A DNA stretch of 64,000 nt from the IMG/VR virus record IMGVR_UViG_3300009104_001210, positions 1-64,000 of that record; one strand, given 5' to 3'. Positions within the stretch are counted from its first letter, which is position 1; each line of letters begins with the position of its first letter. The DNA comes from a virus. A model generated the notes under the pieces. That model ran no database searches. It saw nothing but the letters and a program-made list of their open reading frames with translations, and was not told the DNA's origin. A program made the position numbers and the translations under genes. Below are positions 1 through 8,654 of the stretch, one piece after another.

Positions 1-1851
1 GGAACAGTTAACGCAAGTGGTGGTACATTTACGGGTAATGTTGATGTAGATGGAACACTTACTGCTGGAACTGCTAAATTTGGTGAGAATGTTGCAAGTA
101 CTAATGATGGTCTTTGGTTAGACGCTGACAATTATTGGTACGATAGTGGAGTTATGAAAGCTACATCAGGTACTGTCGGTGGTTGGACTATGACGGATAC
201 AAAATTACAAAACGCTACAAACCTTTTAACATTGGATTCACAGAATCCCAAGATATACGTTGGAAGTAGTGGTGGTAGTTCTACAAGTTTATTTCTTTCT
301 GGAGATGGTCTTTATAGAATATGGATTGGTGGCACAGCCTCAGGATCTGCCCCATTCAGAGTACATAGGGATGGTACATTAACTGCAACTGGTGTAGATA
401 TCACAGGAAATATTACAGCAACGACTGGTACATTTACAGGAACAGTTAACGCAAGCGGTGGAACATTCACAGGTAGAGTTAGAGCGGGAGATGCATATTT
501 TGGAGTAGGTGCTGATGGAGGATCAAATGACGGCATTTATTTAAACTCTAACAATTATTGGTATGATACTGGAACTATAAAAGCACAAGATGGAACAATT
601 GGTGGATTTACACTTGGAAGTTCTAAATTAACTACTACAGGAGGAGCTAACGATCAATCTACAATTGGATTTGGTATATCTACTCCAGAATCTAAACTTC
701 ATGTTATTCAGGATGCTACTGATAGTGATACATTCACAATTGGTTCAACACCATCTTGGGAATGTAAAGATGGAAAAACTGCTTGGGCTGCGAGAATTGG
801 TGTAGATCCATATACAGGCGGAACAGCAAACAATTTTTATCAAGGTGCAATCGGTATGTTAGGTATTAAAGATTCATATCGAATACGAAATTTTGGTCTG
901 TACATGGAAACCATACAGGGTCAAAATAAAGGATGGGCTGGCAGTGATATAGATGTTAGTGGTTCTTATGGTTACGGAGTACAATTTAGTTTTGCTTCAT
1001 CTAAAGTTCAATATGGAGTAAGATCAATTCAAGCGTTTGGACCTGGCCAAGGTACTGCAGGATCTGCTACGGGTGAAATTATGCATATTGGAGCATTGTA
1101 TGATCAGGGAGATGGTTTAGATGTTCAAAGTAACACCCGCACATGGACTACAAGTGGTGGATTAATGCAGAGGGGAGTACAAATCGTCTGTAAGGGAAAC
1201 TATGATGTAGCTATAACATCACACCCAACTAATGCTTCGAATGCAATGAGGGATCTAAGTTATGTATCGGCTTTATCTTTGAATAATTTGCGTACTGGTA
1301 CTAATGGTCAATCAGCTGGACATGGTATTTTTGCTACTGGCTCACAATGGAAACATTTTATTGGTGCATCCACGTTAATTGGAGATCCTTCAGATGGAAA
1401 TAATAAAACACCTTCTTATACGTTAGATGTAAGGGGAGATATACGAGCAACAGGTAACATTACAGCATATTCTGATATTAGAGATAAAGAAAATATAGAA
1501 ACCATTTCTGGGTCTCTTGGTATAATTAATGATATTAGAGGAGTTAAGTTTGATTGGAATGAAGATTATAAATTTGAACACAGAGATAGGAATAAAGGTT
1601 CTGACCGATATATAAAAGCGCTTGCATCAGGATCAGCACCTATGTTAGATCCAAACTTAGAGGGAAGACAAATTGGCGTCATCGCTCAGGAAATAGAGTC
1701 GGTACTACCAGAATTGGTGTTTGAGGATGATAGGGGACGTAAAAATGTATCATATTCAAACTTGACAGCGGTTTTGATAGAGGCTGTTAAGGAACAACAA
1801 GAACAAATCGAAGAATTGAAACAAGAAATAAAGGAGATAAAAGATGCCTGA
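1..1851 (+). CDS. Tail fibre/tailspike with C-terminal S74 chaperone (5' partial)
   Basis: The reading frame is open from base 1, so the gene begins upstream of the window; about 616 codons are visible. The visible N-terminal part is Gly/Thr/Ser-rich beta-structured fibre sequence with an internal repeat: GTVNASGGTFTG occurs at base 1 and again at 439, and NYWYD at 130 and 553. The last 130 residues are an intramolecular chaperone of the endosialidase type (peptidase S74): SDIRDKENI at 1471-1497, then IGVIAQEIESVLPELV, and a C-terminal coiled coil (EQQEQIEELKQEIKEI). In this family Ser (1471) and Lys (1486) form the self-cleavage dyad after trimerisation, and both are present. It probably recognises a host surface glycan; the receptor is unknown. 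Confidence 0.9.
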   Translation, partial: GTVNASGGTFTGNVDVDGTLTAGTAKFGENVASTNDGLWLDADNYWYDSGVMKATSGTVGGWTMTDTKLQNATNLLTLDSQNPKIYVGSSGGSSTSLFLSGDGLYRIWIGGTASGSAPFRVHRDGTLTATGVDITGNITATTGTFTGTVNASGGTFTGRVRAGDAYFGVGADGGSNDGIYLNSNNYWYDTGTIKAQDGTIGGFTLGSSKLTTTGGANDQSTIGFGISTPESKLHVIQDATDSDTFTIGSTPSWECKDGKTAWAARIGVDPYTGGTANNFYQGAIGMLGIKDSYRIRNFGLYMETIQGQNKGWAGSDIDVSGSYGYGVQFSFASSKVQYGVRSIQAFGPGQGTAGSATGEIMHIGALYDQGDGLDVQSNTRTWTTSGGLMQRGVQIVCKGNYDVAITSHPTNASNAMRDLSYVSALSLNNLRTGTNGQSAGHGIFATGSQWKHFIGASTLIGDPSDGNNKTPSYTLDVRGDIRATGNITAYSDIRDKENIETISGSLGIINDIRGVKFDWNEDYKFEHRDRNKGSDRYIKALASGSAPMLDPNLEGRQIGVIAQEIESVLPELVFEDDRGRKNVSYSNLTAVLIEAVKEQQEQIEELKQEIKEIKDA

Positions 1852-2014
1852 AGAAACACCCGTCGTTAAATGTGATTGCCCAGAATGTTCGGATACTTGT
1901 AAAAGAGATTATCCATGCCAAAGTAATGGTTGTGATTGTGATTGTTGTTGTCATGCTTCTGAATCTGGTTATTACACCATAACAGATAAAATGAAAGAAA
2001 AGGCTAATGGCTAG
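1844..2014 (+). CDS. Small cysteine-rich protein (56 aa)
   Basis: ATG at 1844 overlaps the last eight bases of the fibre gene, and the stop at 2012-2014 overlaps the next start (2007), so this frame fills the junction exactly. It is preceded by AAGGAG at 1831-1836. The peptide has ten cysteines in its first 36 residues, in CxC, CxxC and CCCH patterns, followed by a short polar tail. This looks like a metal-binding (zinc or Fe-S) or disulfide-rich knot, but I know of no named family. Its place between the fibre and a Hint-domain structural protein suggests a virion or fibre-assembly role. Function unknown. Confidence 0.7.
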   Translation: MPEETPVVKCDCPECSDTCKRDYPCQSNGCDCDCCCHASESGYYTITDKMKEKANG

Positions 2015-2975
2015 AAGTAATGGAGATACTTTAGGATTAGGAGAAATGGGGTATGCAACCGGCGATAGCGCCAATACTACCACAACGGTAAGTATGCAGG
2101 ATACTTCAGGAGGAACATCTACAGTTTCATTTGATGATTTTGGAATTGATGCTTGTACTAATCCAACAGCCAATGATAGTAATGCTTTACATCCAGAAGA
2201 TACTGCTGAAACTTATACTGCAAATTTTACATCTGCAGGTTCACTTTTTTTATCTAAAATAGGAAATCAAACTCGTAATTTTACTTGGTCTATTTCCCCA
2301 GATGTCGGAGCATTTACATCAGCTGATGTAGGTGCGATATATACAGCACCATTAGTATCTTCAGATACAGCTGCAACTATATCATATAAATTTCATGATT
2401 CGTTTAATGATCACGCAACAGATTATAATACAAATAAATCAATAAGTATAACTATTACAGATACATATGGAGCAGGATGCTTTTCTTTAGATACTAAAAT
2501 TTTGTTATCTGATGGAACGGAAAAAGAAATACAAGATTTAGATATGTCTGATAAGTTAATGGGGATGAAAATGCCAGGTATGCCAACAAAAGGAAAATCA
2601 GCTGATGATTGGCATACCTATGCAAGTTGGACTACAAGCTCTATTGATTTATTTGAAACTTGTGAAGTTGAAATAGAAAGTTTGTGGTTTGATTATTTTG
2701 AAAGTTATTATAAGATTACTACAGAAGAAGATAAAGTTTTAACTGTAACATATGAACACCCTCTTTTTATATTGAGAGAAGGAATTTATCAATGGACACA
2801 TGCTCAAACTTTACAAGAAACAGATAAACTTGTAAATTATAAAAAAGAAGTAGTATCAATAACCAATATAGAGTTTAGAGATGAAGAACTTGAAACTTGT
2901 AATGTTGATGTTGAACCCGAAGACGTTTATTTTGCAGAACATTTTTTAGTGCATAATACTTTTCATGATAAATAG
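2007..2975 (+). CDS. Structural protein with C-terminal Hint/BIL autoprocessing domain
   Basis: 322 aa. Residues 1-157 are a Thr/Ser-rich beta-type domain paralogous to that of the gene at 4029 (shared features: AET..., NFTW, NDHAT.YNT). Residues 158-317 are a Hint domain: nucleophile Cys158 (CFSLDTKILLSDGT), block B TYEH, and the terminal VYFAEHFLVHN ending in His316-Asn317. Only five residues (TFHDK) follow. A hydroxyl residue (Thr318) directly after HN is compatible with splicing or C-terminal cleavage as in type A bacterial intein-like domains. No homing endonuclease is present. Likely a tail or fibre-associated protein that self-cleaves. The overlap with the Cys-rich gene implies co-translation. 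Confidence 0.8.
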   Translation: MARSNGDTLGLGEMGYATGDSANTTTTVSMQDTSGGTSTVSFDDFGIDACTNPTANDSNALHPEDTAETYTANFTSAGSLFLSKIGNQTRNFTWSISPDVGAFTSADVGAIYTAPLVSSDTAATISYKFHDSFNDHATDYNTNKSISITITDTYGAGCFSLDTKILLSDGTEKEIQDLDMSDKLMGMKMPGMPTKGKSADDWHTYASWTTSSIDLFETCEVEIESLWFDYFESYYKITTEEDKVLTVTYEHPLFILREGIYQWTHAQTLQETDKLVNYKKEVVSITNIEFRDEELETCNVDVEPEDVYFAEHFLVHNTFHDK

Positions 2976-2987
2976 GGATAGTATCAT

Positions 2988-3992
2988 ATGAGTTATGATG
3001 TTTATTATAGTACAGGTGGTGGTTCACTTATTATGGGGGGATCTGATGTATGGGTTAATTATTGGTTACAAAATATAGCACCAAAATTAAAACGACCATC
3101 TAAGTTATTAATTCATAGAGCACCAAATTCAATTGTAGAATTTGATTCACCAATTGAAGTTGTTTGGCAAAATGAACCTGAAGTATTTAAAAAAGTATTA
3201 GGAGAAGCTGAAAGAATTCATATTTTACATGGTTATTATCATCCTAAAAAAGAAATAATGGATAATTTGGATAAAATTTATTCTAATATCTTACACGTAA
3301 CAGTAGAAAAATCTTTACGAGCAGGTGTTTATTTAGGATTAAAAAAGTTGAAACATTTTGCTGCAAATATATCTTATGAAAAAGAAATATTAAAAGCATC
3401 TAAAAATAATATATGGATTGGAGTAGATGATACAACATATCATAAAGATAATGATATAATTGATATTCCAAATTTTTATGAATTTAAGAGAAAAAAAGAT
3501 GTGGTTATGAATGATAGAGTTGGATTTTTAGCTAGAATGGAAACAAGAAAAGCACCACACTTTATAAACGATATAGATTCTTGCATGCTTACAGATATAA
3601 GTGATGTTCAATGGTGGAGAGATAATTTAGAATTTCAATGGAATAAAACAAAAGTATTTCAATTTCAATATAAAAATTTACAAAAGTTTTTAGAAAGGGA
3701 TGATTGGGGAATATCACATTCAGCTCACGTATATGAACCATTTGGCTATTCTATATTTGAAGCAATTGATTATGGTAAGTTACCAATATTAGCAGCTGAT
3801 TGGTTATTTGGTAAGTTAGAGTATCCTTTTAGAGCAGCAAATAAACAAGAATTTGAAAATACACATTCTCAAATTTGTAAACTGAGTGAAAAAGAAAGAC
3901 AGTATTGGTTATTAAAGTTAAGAGCTTATTTATCAAGATATGATAATAAAGATGAATGGATCAACAAATATTTGGAAATATACAATTCTTGA
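2988..3992 (+). CDS. GT4-like glycosyltransferase (GT-B fold)
   Basis: 334 aa. The N-terminal segment carries a Gly-rich loop (STGGGSLIMGGSDVW) as in GT-B enzymes, and the C-terminal half ends with a textbook E-x7-E nucleotide-sugar motif, EPFGYSIFE (Glu250 to Glu258), followed by a hydrophobic strand and AADWLFG. RVGFLARMETRKAPHF is the usual start of the second Rossmann domain. GT4 enzymes are retaining transferases using NDP-sugars; donor and acceptor cannot be read here. It lies between the two Hint-domain structural genes, so glycosylation of those proteins or of the fibre is a reasonable inference. It has an ATG start 12 bases after the upstream stop. Confidence 0.75.
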   Translation: MSYDVYYSTGGGSLIMGGSDVWVNYWLQNIAPKLKRPSKLLIHRAPNSIVEFDSPIEVVWQNEPEVFKKVLGEAERIHILHGYYHPKKEIMDNLDKIYSNILHVTVEKSLRAGVYLGLKKLKHFAANISYEKEILKASKNNIWIGVDDTTYHKDNDIIDIPNFYEFKRKKDVVMNDRVGFLARMETRKAPHFINDIDSCMLTDISDVQWWRDNLEFQWNKTKVFQFQYKNLQKFLERDDWGISHSAHVYEPFGYSIFEAIDYGKLPILAADWLFGKLEYPFRAANKQEFENTHSQICKLSEKERQYWLLKLRAYLSRYDNKDEWINKYLEIYNS

Positions 3993-4005
3993 TATTTATA
4001 ATTGA
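3993..4005 (+). promoter_or_regulatory. Promoter-like motif TATTTATA-N2-TGA
   Basis: TATTTATA at 3993-4000 followed by AT and TGA, 24 bases upstream of the start at 4029. The same arrangement recurs in the other rare gaps of this window. T4 late promoters carry TATAAATA, the reverse complement of the core seen here, so the assignment to a promoter is inferred from recurrence and position only. Confidence 0.45.
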
Positions 4006-4028
4006 TAAACTATATATAGGAATGTTTA

Positions 4029-5144
4029 ATGGCAACAGATGCAAATCAAGATTTATCGTTAGGAAAACTGAGAAGAGCGGTAGATGGAAATGACTCATAT
4101 ACAGCAGAATCTAAATTAGGAGAAGATGCTGGCGGCACTACTTCTGCAGATTCAGATGTAGGAATGTCCAATTTTTCTATTTCAGCAGTTAGTTCAACTC
4201 TTTCTGGAAGTAAACACCAAGATGAAGGTACAGCTGAAACCGTAACAATGGAATTTTCAGATGCAGGTTCAAGGTTTATTTCACGAATAGCTGGTCGTTC
4301 TGAGAACTTTACTTGGGCAAAAAACAACGCCGTTGGTTCAGGAACTTATACAATAGAATCTGGAGATTATACGGCGACGGGAACAGCAGGTGCTATTTCT
4401 AGTGTAGATACAGCAAATACAGTAGGTGATGGTGTTAGGGGAACATTTCATGCTGCACATACAGGAGATTGGCGAGTAGGAATTAGTGCTTCATTTCATG
4501 AAGATGGACAATCAGATGGATATAATGATCACGCAACAAGATATAATACTGCTATAAAGAAAAAAACTCAAGTAGAAGACGTATATAATAGTGTTGCTAT
4601 AACTTGTTTTACACCTGATACTGAAATGCTTATGGCAGATGGAACATCTAAACAGATACAAGATGTACTTATTGGTGATGAGATTGTTGCTATGACATTA
4701 CCAAACGATGTAGAAGATTTTAAAGATTATAGTGTTGATAGTATAGATGGATTAGAACAAACTACAGCAAAAGTTGTTAATATGTTCTTTGATTTTGCTG
4801 ATGAGTATTATATTATTAATGGTGATATTAAAGTAACAGGAGAACATCCTATTTTTATTCAGGTTCCTGAAGGATTTTATGTAGATGTTGAAGATTCTTC
4901 TGAATTTTATTGTTGGGAATATGTTGTTAACTTGAAAGTTGGTCAAATTATGTATAATAAGAATTTGAATGAAGTTCCAATTGATGTTATTGAGAAAGTA
5001 GAAAAAGAAATAGAAATTGTAAATGTAGATGTTGATGGTCCAAATACATATTTTGCAGGTGGAGTATTGGTTCATAATAAAGGAGCAGCATCAGTATCAG
5101 ATACAGGTGATGGAATAGGACACTCATTTACTGAAGACGGATAG
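4029..5144 (+). CDS. Structural protein with C-terminal Hint/BIL domain, second copy
   Basis: 371 aa, a paralogue of the gene at 2007. Residues 1-192 are the structural part (AETVTMEFSDAG, ENFTW, NDHATRYNT match the first copy). Residues 193-350 form the Hint domain: Cys193 (CFTPDTEMLMADGT), block B VTGEHPIF, terminal YFAGGVLVHN with His349-Asn350. The residue after HN is Lys351, not Cys/Ser/Thr, so splicing is unlikely; cleavage at either end, as in type B bacterial intein-like domains, fits better. A 21-residue Gly/Ser-rich tail follows. It has its own promoter-like motif 24 bases upstream and an AGGA ribosome site. Confidence 0.8.
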   Translation: MATDANQDLSLGKLRRAVDGNDSYTAESKLGEDAGGTTSADSDVGMSNFSISAVSSTLSGSKHQDEGTAETVTMEFSDAGSRFISRIAGRSENFTWAKNNAVGSGTYTIESGDYTATGTAGAISSVDTANTVGDGVRGTFHAAHTGDWRVGISASFHEDGQSDGYNDHATRYNTAIKKKTQVEDVYNSVAITCFTPDTEMLMADGTSKQIQDVLIGDEIVAMTLPNDVEDFKDYSVDSIDGLEQTTAKVVNMFFDFADEYYIINGDIKVTGEHPIFIQVPEGFYVDVEDSSEFYCWEYVVNLKVGQIMYNKNLNEVPIDVIEKVEKEIEIVNVDVDGPNTYFAGGVLVHNKGAASVSDTGDGIGHSFTEDG

Positions 5145-5209: not shown

Positions 5210-6793
5210 ATGGATAATAGGTTAGCAATAATTGTTCCTTATCGAGATAGAAGAAAACAGTTAGATGTTTTCATTCCGCATATGGATTCCTTTTTTCAAA
5301 ATAAAGGAATTGATTATCAGATAATAGTAGCAGAACAAAGAGATGATAGGCCTTTTAACAGAGGTAAATTATGTAACGCCGTGTTTGATTTAATTAAAGA
5401 CGACTTTGATTATTTTTGCTTTCACGACGTAGACTTGTTGCCATTAACAGATGATTGTGATTATTCTTATGTAGATAAACCAACTCATGTAGCAGCTATC
5501 ATTGACGATGTATATCTACCATATGAAGAGTTTATTGGTGGAGTATTCTTAATCAATAAAGAGCATTTCGAACAAATTAATGGATTTTCTGATGAATATT
5601 GGGGATGGGGATATGAAGATAATGATTTGTTAGAAAGAATGAGAAAAAATGATATTCCATTAAATACAGTTATAGATATTTCTTCTGTTTCAAAAAATCC
5701 AAGATATTCTTTTGATCAAGTACATTTACACAATAATTTTAAAACTAAGATATTAAATACTATTAAACTACATGGTGATATTTGTATAGAAGTACCAACA
5801 TCGGATTCTATAGATAATTTAACTAATGGTAGTTTTTCTTTTTCTATTTGGGCAAAACCAACAATAGAAGATTATGAACAATTTATATTATCAAGACCAC
5901 CAATTGGGTTAGGAATGTTATATACAGTAGAAGGTGAATTTAAATTTTTATTGTGGGATGAGAATGATGAAGCTCATGTTATAAAAGATTATAGAATACC
6001 AAATGAATGGTATCATTTATGTATGACATATGATACTAAAACTAAAATGTTTAGTGCATATATTAATGGTTCTTTAATAAAAACGATTAAAGTTGAATCA
6101 TTAAAAAACTTTAGTGGAGAGTGGTTTTATATTGGAGCAGATTCTTCTAATGAAAATAATTTTAGAGGAAGTGTTAGTGAAGCAACATTATGGAATGTTT
6201 GTTTAGATGAAAACGAAACTAAAAAATTATATTTTGAACAAGTAACTAATTTGATACATAGTCCAATAATGTGGCATAAGTTTGATAAGTGTTACGGAAG
6301 TTATATATTAGGTACAGAAGTTAATAGTGGAAATTTTCAAAAAATAAAAGTATATATTATGCTAGATGAATCTACTTATGAAAATAACGGAACAGTTAAA
6401 AGTTTTTCTAAGGAAATAAAACCTCTTCAATCGAAAGCTACAATAAATCCTATATTAGAAAAGATAATATTGGGTACTACTATAAAGATACCTAATAGAA
6501 GATATGGAATTTATAAAACTTTAGTTAATGATAAAACATGGAAAAGAGGAAGACAGGTTACAGATAAAGATTATGTTCATAGTAGAGTAAGACATTATAA
6601 GTCTACTGATGGAAAGGATATTGTAACTAAATTAAAATCATATGATCCAGATATTTTAGAAAATTCAGATATATTTTTTGATGAAGTTAGAGAAGGATCA
6701 GTGATTAATGTTGGTTTAAATAAATTAGATTATAAAGTTAGAAACAGACAAGAATTTGAAGATATTCATGAATGGATAGAAATAATAACATAG
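5210..6793 (+). CDS. GT7 galactosyltransferase-like enzyme with inserted LamG domain (copy 1)
   Basis: 527 aa. Residues 1-150 match the beta-1,4-galactosyltransferase (GT7) core: IIVPYRDR, PFNRGKL, metal-binding FHDVDLLP (Asp73-x-Asp75), FIGGVFL, and WGWGYEDND at 131-139. About 185-355 is a concanavalin-like LamG domain (SFSFSIWAKP, WYHLCMTYD, FYIGADS, FRGSVSEATLWN). The end of the GT7 fold then resumes: NRRYGIYK at 429 and GLNKLDYKV at 502, the counterpart of the family's RY...DGLNxLxY. The lectin-like domain is therefore inserted inside the enzyme, not appended. Related copies lie at 7176 and 12067. Donor probably a UDP-hexose; acceptor unknown. Confidence 0.8.
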   Translation: MDNRLAIIVPYRDRRKQLDVFIPHMDSFFQNKGIDYQIIVAEQRDDRPFNRGKLCNAVFDLIKDDFDYFCFHDVDLLPLTDDCDYSYVDKPTHVAAIIDDVYLPYEEFIGGVFLINKEHFEQINGFSDEYWGWGYEDNDLLERMRKNDIPLNTVIDISSVSKNPRYSFDQVHLHNNFKTKILNTIKLHGDICIEVPTSDSIDNLTNGSFSFSIWAKPTIEDYEQFILSRPPIGLGMLYTVEGEFKFLLWDENDEAHVIKDYRIPNEWYHLCMTYDTKTKMFSAYINGSLIKTIKVESLKNFSGEWFYIGADSSNENNFRGSVSEATLWNVCLDENETKKLYFEQVTNLIHSPIMWHKFDKCYGSYILGTEVNSGNFQKIKVYIMLDESTYENNGTVKSFSKEIKPLQSKATINPILEKIILGTTIKIPNRRYGIYKTLVNDKTWKRGRQVTDKDYVHSRVRHYKSTDGKDIVTKLKSYDPDILENSDIFFDEVREGSVINVGLNKLDYKVRNRQEFEDIHEWIEIIT

Positions 6794-6981: not shown

Positions 6982-7186
6982 AACATTAGAAGAAAGAGGA
7001 GTAGATGCTTTAGAAAAGATATCTGAATCCTTACAAACTATAGAAGATGCCGTATTGGAGTTTGATGTTCCAGCATGGAGCGAAAGATTAGAATGGTATA
7101 TGAATGAATACTATGCTATTTTAAAAGCTAAAGTTGTTGGAAATCCAAATAGACCATCTCGTGATAGAGATGTAAATGAGTCATAA
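6974..7186 (+). CDS. Small hypothetical protein (70 aa)
   Basis: ATG at 6974 follows AAGGAG at 6960-6965 and overlaps the upstream stop. Predicted helical and acidic (ALEKISESLQTIEDAVLEF), with a Pro/Arg-rich end. The stop overlaps the start of the next GT7/LamG gene (7176). Translational coupling on both sides makes it a real gene of the block. No function can be assigned. Confidence 0.55.
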   Translation: MAKTLEERGVDALEKISESLQTIEDAVLEFDVPAWSERLEWYMNEYYAILKAKVVGNPNRPSRDRDVNES

Positions 7187-8654
7187 TATAGGTCCACTCG
7201 GATTAAGATCACTTAATCCTAAGTTAGCAATAATAGTACCTTATAGAGATAGAAAGAAGCAGCTTGATAAATTTATAAAGCACATGACGAACTTCTTTCT
7301 AGATACGGATGTAAAGTATCATATATTTGTAATAGAACAAGAAGATGATAAACCATTTAATCAAGGAAAGTTATTAAATGTTGGGTTTTCTTTAGCAGAA
7401 CACGATTTTAATTATTTTTGTTTCCATGATGTAGATTTACTTCCCGAAAAGGATTGTGATTATTCGTATCCTGATGATAAACCATTACACTTAGGTGGGT
7501 TTACAAGTGAATATGATTACGAATTACAGTTTCAAGACTATTTTGGTGGAGTAACTTTGTTTAGAAAAGAAGATTATGAAGCAGCAAATGGTAGGTCAAA
7601 TAACTATTGGGGGTGGGGATTTGAAGATGATGATTTATTGTTTAGATGTAAACAAGCAGGACTTCCAATTGACACAAAGTTTTTTGGTGTAGCTAAAACA
7701 AACTGTTATTCTTATCTTGAGTTTGATGGATATGATGATTTTGTTGAAATAAAAGTTACAGATGAACTAAAAGAATTAACAAAAGATAGTTTCTCAGTAA
7801 CAGTTTCTATACATCCAGAATTACAACACCAAGTAGAAGATATTCCATACGATGAACATTTTGCTTTTTCTATACCTGGCTATCATTGTGGTTTATCTTA
7901 TACAAGTCATAGAAGATATAAAGCAGATATATTTGATTCTAATATAAAATCACAAGCAGTTCTTACAGATATAGAAACAGAATATTTTAATCATTTAACT
8001 ATGGTTTATAATAAGGAAATAGATAGATTTTTATTTTATCAAAATGGAAAATTAGTAGATTCTACAAGAATTGAAAAATTATATGATTATACTAAAGAAG
8101 AGTATTTATATTTAGGATGTGCTAATCCAGCAAATAAAGAATATTCATATAACTTTAAAGGTAAGATAGTAGAAGTTGCTATTTGGAATAACGCATTGGA
8201 TGAGGGAGATGTGAGTTCTTTATATAAAAATAATTTTGTAAGAAGTTTGACTACAAACTTTTTTGATTATAGAAGTTCGGAAAGCTTAGTTTTATATTAT
8301 GATTTTAAACATATAGTTGGAAATCAAGTTTTTGATAATAGTGGATGGTATAATAATGGTGTTATACATGGAGCAACTAACGGTAGTAAAATAGGCAAGA
8401 GAGGAAGATGGTTAACTGTACCTCATAGAAGATATGGTAGATATACTTCACAACAACATTCAAAATCAGCATGGGCAGCAGAAGGTTTACATTGGTTATA
8501 TTCAGAAACAAGAGATAATCAAACAAGATTTTTTAATAAAGTTAAAACAGGTTATGAAGATTGGCATATTGATGGATTAAATACTTTAAAATATTCATTA
8601 AATTCAAGAGAAGAGTTATCAGATAAAGCAACTATATTTAAAGTGGAATTATAA
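7176..8654 (+). CDS. GT7 galactosyltransferase-like enzyme with inserted LamG domain (copy 2)
   Basis: 492 aa. It has the same architecture as the gene at 5210 and the clearest GT7 ends: IIVPYRDRKKQL, PFNQGKL, FHDVDLLP (His84, Asp85, Asp87), YFGGVTLF, WGWGFEDDD (145-153), then after the insert VPHRRYGRY (415-423) and DGLNTLKY (466-473), as in vertebrate beta-1,4-galactosyltransferases. The 240-residue insert between them has LamG features (SFSVTVSIHP, YLYLGCANPA, FKGKIVEVAIWNNALDEGD). All metal and donor motifs are kept, so it is probably active. Tandem near-copies suggest that each builds a different linkage or uses a different acceptor. The start overlaps the upstream stop. Confidence 0.82.
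   Translation: MSHNIGPLGLRSLNPKLAIIVPYRDRKKQLDKFIKHMTNFFLDTDVKYHIFVIEQEDDKPFNQGKLLNVGFSLAEHDFNYFCFHDVDLLPEKDCDYSYPDDKPLHLGGFTSEYDYELQFQDYFGGVTLFRKEDYEAANGRSNNYWGWGFEDDDLLFRCKQAGLPIDTKFFGVAKTNCYSYLEFDGYDDFVEIKVTDELKELTKDSFSVTVSIHPELQHQVEDIPYDEHFAFSIPGYHCGLSYTSHRRYKADIFDSNIKSQAVLTDIETEYFNHLTMVYNKEIDRFLFYQNGKLVDSTRIEKLYDYTKEEYLYLGCANPANKEYSYNFKGKIVEVAIWNNALDEGDVSSLYKNNFVRSLTTNFFDYRSSESLVLYYDFKHIVGNQVFDNSGWYNNGVIHGATNGSKIGKRGRWLTVPHRRYGRYTSQQHSKSAWAAEGLHWLYSETRDNQTRFFNKVKTGYEDWHIDGLNTLKYSLNSREELSDKATIFKVEL

Follow-up and report, generated by a model that had tools for sequence, protein, structure and literature searches.

The window analysed here, a stretch of 64,000 nucleotides of viral DNA (positions 1 to 64,000 of IMG/VR record IMGVR_UViG_3300009104_001210), encodes two structural-type proteins, W1 (2007-2975) and W2 (4029-5144), that each terminate in a complete Hint domain, with the gene of a predicted glycosyltransferase (GT) between them. 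Our comparison of relatives reveals that the GT gene is obligately paired with a Hint gene and that this pairing outlasts exchange of the N-terminal domain of the Hint protein. The Hint domains encoded downstream of the GT carry an invariant Lys-Gly directly after their terminal His-Asn (HN|KG), and the combination of strict pairing with this junction is unexpected to specialists. The explanation that we favour, at a probability of about 0.5, is self-processing of the kind known from bacterial intein-like (BIL) domains, in which the amine of a lysine in the C-terminal flank (C-flank) would act as acceptor and the GT would be dedicated to the same protein. The features concerned are listed below with the evidence for each in brackets.

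2007 to 2477, plus strand: N-terminal structural part of W1, residues 1-157, with an LGLG.. segment and an Ig-like part, ending ..DTYGAG157 (homology to the W2 N-terminal part; N-domain family of 110)
2478 to 2957, plus strand: Hint domain of W1, Cys158-Asn317, with block B T248..H251 and HN at 316-317 (TIGR01445, 35.7 bits; alignments)
2958 to 2972, plus strand: C-flank of W1, TFHDK; VHxK, EVGK, GKGE and AGKAP in relatives (alignments)
2988 to 3992, plus strand: predicted GT4-like glycosyltransferase with a GT-B fold, obligately next to Hint genes (AlphaFold2 model, Foldseek, motifs, linkage)
4029 to 4604, plus strand: N-terminal structural part of W2, residues 1-192, ending ..VAIT192, with the near-invariant N93-x-S/T (N-domain family comparison)
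4605 to 5078, plus strand: Hint domain of W2, Cys193-Asn350, with block B T270..H273 and HN at 349-350 (Foldseek matches to BIL, intein and Hedgehog structures; invariant columns)
5079 to 5084, plus strand: Lys351 (+1) and Gly352 (+2) of W2, the HN|KG signature of GT-paired Hint domains (103 of 103 distinct sequences; 78 of 78 in the second GT-first scan)
5085 to 5141, plus strand: tail of the W2 C-flank, predicted to be disordered; relatives have FN3-like domains of ~100 residues or LamG-like domains of ~220 residues instead (model; relatives)
154 to 1851, plus strand: context, a tail-fibre protein with a C-terminal Peptidase_S74 auto-cleaving chaperone (PF13884, E 1.2e-11; tail PHROGs)

Both W1 and W2 are real open reading frames (ORFs), and the original prediction had rightly described them as twin structural proteins with Hint domains, a description borne out by residues, profiles and the W2 fold. 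Their N-terminal parts are mutually homologous. The Hint domains of W1 and W2 begin at Cys158 and Cys193 (Cys1), directly after Gly157 and Thr192, respectively, and carry T248-Y-E-H251-P and T270-G-E-H273-P as block B. They end in H316-N317 and H349-N350, followed by Thr318-FHDK and a stop in W1 and by Lys351-Gly and a 19-residue tail in W2. The residues that the prediction had named before Cys1 and after HN were thus all correct. The TIGR01445 (intein_Nterm) profile scored 35.7 bits with W1, above its cut-off of 24.5, and 18.9 bits with W2, and PF05203 and PF01079 gave sub-cut-off matches to the window Hint domains. Sequence searches of the PDB with W1, W2 and the GT returned zero significant matches, but fold searches did return matches. 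No Hint domains beyond those of W1 and W2 were found in the 216-kb virus record.

The ORF at 2988-3992 had no significant match in Pfam (PF00534, E 0.037). Its AlphaFold2 model (predicted template modelling score 0.86) found GT-B/GT4-type enzymes as top matches in Foldseek, with E values down to 3e-11, and the motifs EPFGYSIF(E/Q) and R.E.RK are invariant or nearly so among relatives. The encoded protein is thus predicted to be a GT4-like glycosyltransferase of GT-B fold. Relatives were gathered by scans of IMG/VR and GenBank phages. When searched from the Hint side, the GT lay directly upstream in practically every locus with sufficient upstream sequence, usually 8-40 bp from the W2-type gene. 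When searched from the GT side, a Hint gene lay within 400 bp in 79 of 80 loci of the first scan (468 bp in the remaining locus) and in 78 of 80 loci of the second, with one more at ~760 bp and one contig ending. After deduplication, 84 of 85 GT loci had a Hint gene no more than two genes away, the exception being a contig end, and the outer neighbours of the pair varied across these 85 distinct loci (9 families upstream and 7 downstream). Among 50,697 GenBank phage records, the GT occurred in LR756508 only (484 kb, uncultured phage; L093:8629-11017), again adjoining a Hint gene. In this locus the gene order is reversed, the N-terminal part is unrelated and the junction reads HN|KH, and the block-B His is replaced by Gln, with a probably weakened N-S shift. 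Several unrelated N-terminal parts are found on GT-adjacent Hint proteins (L093, L004, L005, L006, L019-type), so the constant partner of the GT is the Hint domain and not one adhesin domain. A functional basis for the pairing is likely. Our search of the open-access literature, with subscription papers and preprints outside its range, found no paper on a GT-Hint pair.

The catalytic residues of the Hint domain are highly conserved. Among the 128 distinct relatives kept, Cys1 was present in 127, the block-B His in 126, the penultimate His in 126 and the terminal Asn in 124. A selfish or degenerate domain is unlikely because these residues are invariant. The Hint domains downstream of the GT (W2-type), which were grouped by gene position and not by sequence, had Lys-Gly at +1 and +2 in 103 of 103 distinct sequences. 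The +1 Lys is conserved as strictly as the catalytic residues even though Hint identities among these sequences drop below 40%; clustering yields 6 groups at 40% and 14 at 50% Hint identity. The second GT-first scan gave HN|KG in all 78 readable ends, and a scan with the N-terminal domain gave HNKG in 75, HNKE in 1 and HNKD in 1. Among 34 representatives (median identity 34%), 9 of 163 Hint columns were invariant, namely Cys1, the block-B His, HN, E329, V335, Y341, K351 and G352; this set was picked as KG-bearing, so that for K and G the count of 103 is the valid basis.

The position after HN behaves differently elsewhere. W1-type (upstream) Hint domains have V, T, E, G or A at +1 and a Lys 2-5 residues further on, with HN-V-H-x-K as a common end. 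Phage Hint domains with no GT neighbour have D, A, V, S, T, G or P, with Lys in 2 of 20, and a small background of four readable Bacteroidia ends gave HNS, HNS, HNA and HNK. Judged by these alignments, Lys+1 tracks with the GT, the Thr of W1 is a local variant, and Thr318 is not a conserved splicing nucleophile, since W1-type relatives have V, E, G or A in its place. The original prediction had read Thr and Lys as marks of two cleavage modes. Two kinds of C-terminal junction do exist, but they are distinguished by the variable W1-type end and the HN|KG of the W2 type; the +1 residues of relatives led us to reject Thr versus Lys as a cleavage-mode switch. A weaker pattern concerns very short C-flanks, where Lys was present in all 10 families considered (10 of 10; post hoc, with a background-corrected product of 8e-5) and then, in a partly held-out check, in 6 of 6 later proteins from about four families.

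The W2-type N-terminal part belongs to a single family of 110 members, W1 included. All 80 family members found through the N-terminal domain alone carried a Hint domain, and no Hint-less relatives were found, which makes Hint a fixed component of the architecture rather than a sporadic intein. Past HNKG, the C-flank consists of 4-30 residues, an FN3-like domain of ~100 residues or a LamG-like domain of ~220 residues.

Structure comparison placed the Hint domain of W2 close to the BIL family. The AlphaFold model of W2 had per-residue confidence (pLDDT) of mostly 85-96 over the Hint part. Foldseek ranked Tetrahymena BUBL1 BIL2 first (E 5e-10), followed by Clostridium BIL4, class 1 and class 3 inteins and Hedgehog. 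CthBIL4 (2lwy) aligned at a target-normalised TM of 0.85 (E 8e-10) and Hedgehog 1at0 at E 2.3e-6. The Hint domains of W1 and W2 combine the Hint fold, Cys1, block-B TxxH and a C-terminal HN with no conserved Cys, Ser or Thr at +1, as in CthBIL4 of Clostridium thermocellum; they are A-type-BIL-like and constitute a new variant within the BIL/Hint family. Like A-type BILs, they are positioned between domains of variable surface-type proteins. Unlike A-type BILs, the phage domains carry an insert peculiar to their family between blocks A and B, and the W2 type adds the invariant Lys-Gly past HN, a setting in phage tail proteins and an obligate GT-B neighbour gene. Tetrahymena BUBL1 BIL2 (6y75, 6tmm), the best structural match, is reported to hand the acyl group of its N-flank over to the epsilon-amine of a Lys (PMC8616854). 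It differs in its eukaryotic polyubiquitin locus and ubiquitin-like flanks.

Two other classes fitted less well. Hedgehog (1at0, 6tyy) shares the Hint fold and the Cys1 thioester step, but it has a sterol-recognition region and no terminal HN, and neither trait fits the phage domains. These keep HN, their C-flanks in the window proteins are 5-21 residues long, and an adduct-binding region is absent, so that Hedgehog-like membership was rejected. W1 has Cys1, TxxH, HN and Thr+1, which speaks for a class 1 mini-intein that splices its N- and C-flanks through Thr. However, W1-type relatives have V, E, G or A at +1, the W2 type has Lys, and the W1 C-flank is 5 residues long. Hint-less alleles and an endonuclease are both lacking, and the domain is not a sporadic insert. 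We rejected the splicing intein on these grounds and regard it as highly improbable.

We suggest that W1 and W2 serve as structural proteins of the phage tail in host recognition and that their C-terminal Hint domain processes its own precursor. In Hint domains generally, Cys1 forms a thioester and HN supports Asn cyclisation, and A-type BILs, which have no +1 nucleophile, mostly cleave (PMC7664689, PMC7765530, PMC5874633). Judged by fold and residues, active self-processing of the phage domains is very probable. Cys1 would take over the acyl group of the residue before it in an N-S shift, so that the N-terminal structural part would end in a thioester, as the original prediction had held and as is expected for the first step of a Hint fold. 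The terminal Asn would then cyclise and free the C-flank. In the W2 type, the thioester would mostly be resolved by the C-flank Lys amine, with the invariant Lys+1 as the candidate, in preference to water or a glycan. Attack by the epsilon-amine of Lys+1 would yield an isopeptide bond and attack by its alpha-amine an ordinary peptide bond. The isopeptide reported for Tetrahymena BIL2 is a precedent (PMC8616854), and the invariant Lys+1 makes an amine acceptor available without any glycan. Lysine as the main acceptor is nevertheless a tentative assignment. More doubtful still is the specific form of a two-gene phage system, in which the Hint thioester would join the adhesin C-terminus to the Lys+1 epsilon-amine by ATP-free isopeptide ligation and the GT would have either that protein or the acceptor as its target.

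Plain double cleavage is a rival explanation. The Hint domain would then work, in the manner of S74, as an inbuilt chaperone or protease for maturation, the thioester would be hydrolysed, the C-flank would be released with no adduct, and Lys+1 would merely favour C-cleavage. A-type BILs predominantly yield cleaved products (PMC7664689), an S74 auto-cleaving fibre gene lies immediately upstream of W1, and the W1 C-flank has just 5 residues. This explanation leaves the absolute invariance of Lys+1 and Gly+2, confined to GT-paired Hint domains, unaccounted for, and we consider it rather unlikely, though less so than the two-gene ligation system.

The role of the GT was approached through the same comparisons. 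The linkage is observed, and it points more simply to a dedicated GT that glycosylates the Hint-bearing adhesin, possibly at N-x-S/T in the N-terminal domain; we infer this role from the likeness to adhesin glycosyltransferases encoded beside their targets (PMC8151025). Within the N-domain family, Asn93 is kept in 109 of 110 members and the sequon N93-x-S/T in 93 of 110. Overall sequon enrichment was unconvincing (4.6 versus 3.8 in shuffles), so that the N93 site alone stands out, and its conservation may have a structural cause instead of glycosylation. The GT could also modify the Ig-like N-terminal domain, for example at N93, with its linkage to Hint incidental and both serving the same tail part, for which co-transcribed N-glycosyltransferase (NGT)/adhesin pairs are precedents (PMC8151025). 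But the GT is also paired with Hint proteins whose N-terminal parts are unrelated, leaving Hint as the constant element, and the GT fold is GT4-type, not that of a GT41 NGT. An incidental linkage is a possibility that we would place level with lysine as the main acceptor.

The original prediction had pointed from the thioester to the adjacent glycan pathway, proposing that a sugar hydroxyl or amine would attack it to leave a C-terminal glycan, as cholesterol is attached to Hedgehog. Its pointer to the glycan gene was justified, in that the GT gene between W1 and W2 is obligately linked to Hint genes even after N-domain exchange. The glycan adduct itself is among the less likely outcomes. The HN and C-cleavage apparatus absent from Hedgehog is kept, the stretch from the end of the Hint domain to the C-terminus ranges from 5 to ~250 residues and includes no constant domain for binding an adduct, and dedicated pairs of GT and adhesin genes are ordinary elsewhere (PMC8151025). 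No Hint domain is known to use a sugar. A GT-made glycan as acceptor is less likely than the Lys+1 epsilon-amine, and we rate glycan capture as highly improbable, slightly below the splicing mini-intein.

Several points weigh against BIL-type processing with a lysine acceptor and a dedicated GT. Lys+1 could alternatively adjust the cyclisation of Asn or owe its constancy to common descent, and the few-residue C-flank of W1 offers no obvious gain from ligation. GT-Hint linkage in related phages can partly mirror conserved gene order, and the samples are mostly uncultured metagenomic contigs of related phages, so that the counts are non-independent. The Hint domain of LR756508 has no block-B His and HN is lost in the W1-type domains of L004, L014 and L006; activity is thus not required everywhere.

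Phage tail parts determine host range. If the favoured explanation is true, auto-ligation and glycosylation would be added to the means by which phages build and vary tail parts, in aquatic T4-like and larger phages. The conserved pair of a Hint adhesin and a private GT suggests a so far undescribed route to finish and decorate host-binding parts. Meanwhile, the HN|KG junction is a natural test of whether Lys can substitute for Cys, Ser or Thr in protein splicing, a question prompted by just one eukaryotic case.

Two other groups of systems are partly comparable. The tail proteins of phage NCTB and of Erwinia, Dickeya and Yersinia jumbo phages (PHROG 38766) likewise are tail-fibre-region structural proteins with a C-terminal Hint domain (Cys1, TxxH, HN) and a short Lys-containing C-flank. 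They differ in that a GT of this family is not adjacent, +1 is Thr, Ala or Val, and the N-terminal parts are collagen-like or of other kinds. In adhesin-dedicated systems (HMW1C/EtpC, BAHT/TibC), the GT gene adjoins that of the adhesin it modifies (PMC8151025). Those adhesins have no Hint domain, unlike the phage proteins, and the phage GT is GT4-like by fold search.

Individual relatives showed further arrangements. Phage NCTB BN7874_135 (L007:2822-3283) is a stand-alone Hint-like protein of 153 residues with no N-terminal part and an HN|KVD end, flanked by two further tail genes of Hint or collagen-like type. The upstream Hint domains at L004:2313-3011 and L014:2223-2921 have lost the terminal HN (CRQ and CHQ ends, respectively) and have no C-flank, but they keep Cys1 and TxxH and resemble natural N-cleavage-only forms. 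Another twin layout, in a different phage, consists of tandem Hint proteins at L307:2-1827 that end in HN|KF and HN|GFGK and have no GT. At L348:4508-5464, the Hint frame ends just ahead of HN and a LamG-like C-flank follows in a separate downstream ORF, through either a sequencing error or a natural split. Hint-like domains were also found in contigs of marine bacterial metagenome-assembled genomes (L258:985-2922, minus strand, and L260:583-2004), where the N-terminal part appears ATP-grasp-like by eye; the L260 domain has neither Cys1 nor HN. In the window itself, just downstream of the Hint pair, 5210-6793 and 7176-8654 encode fusions in which a GT7 galactosyltransferase-type domain (PF13733/PF02709) is joined to a LamG lectin domain (PF13385).

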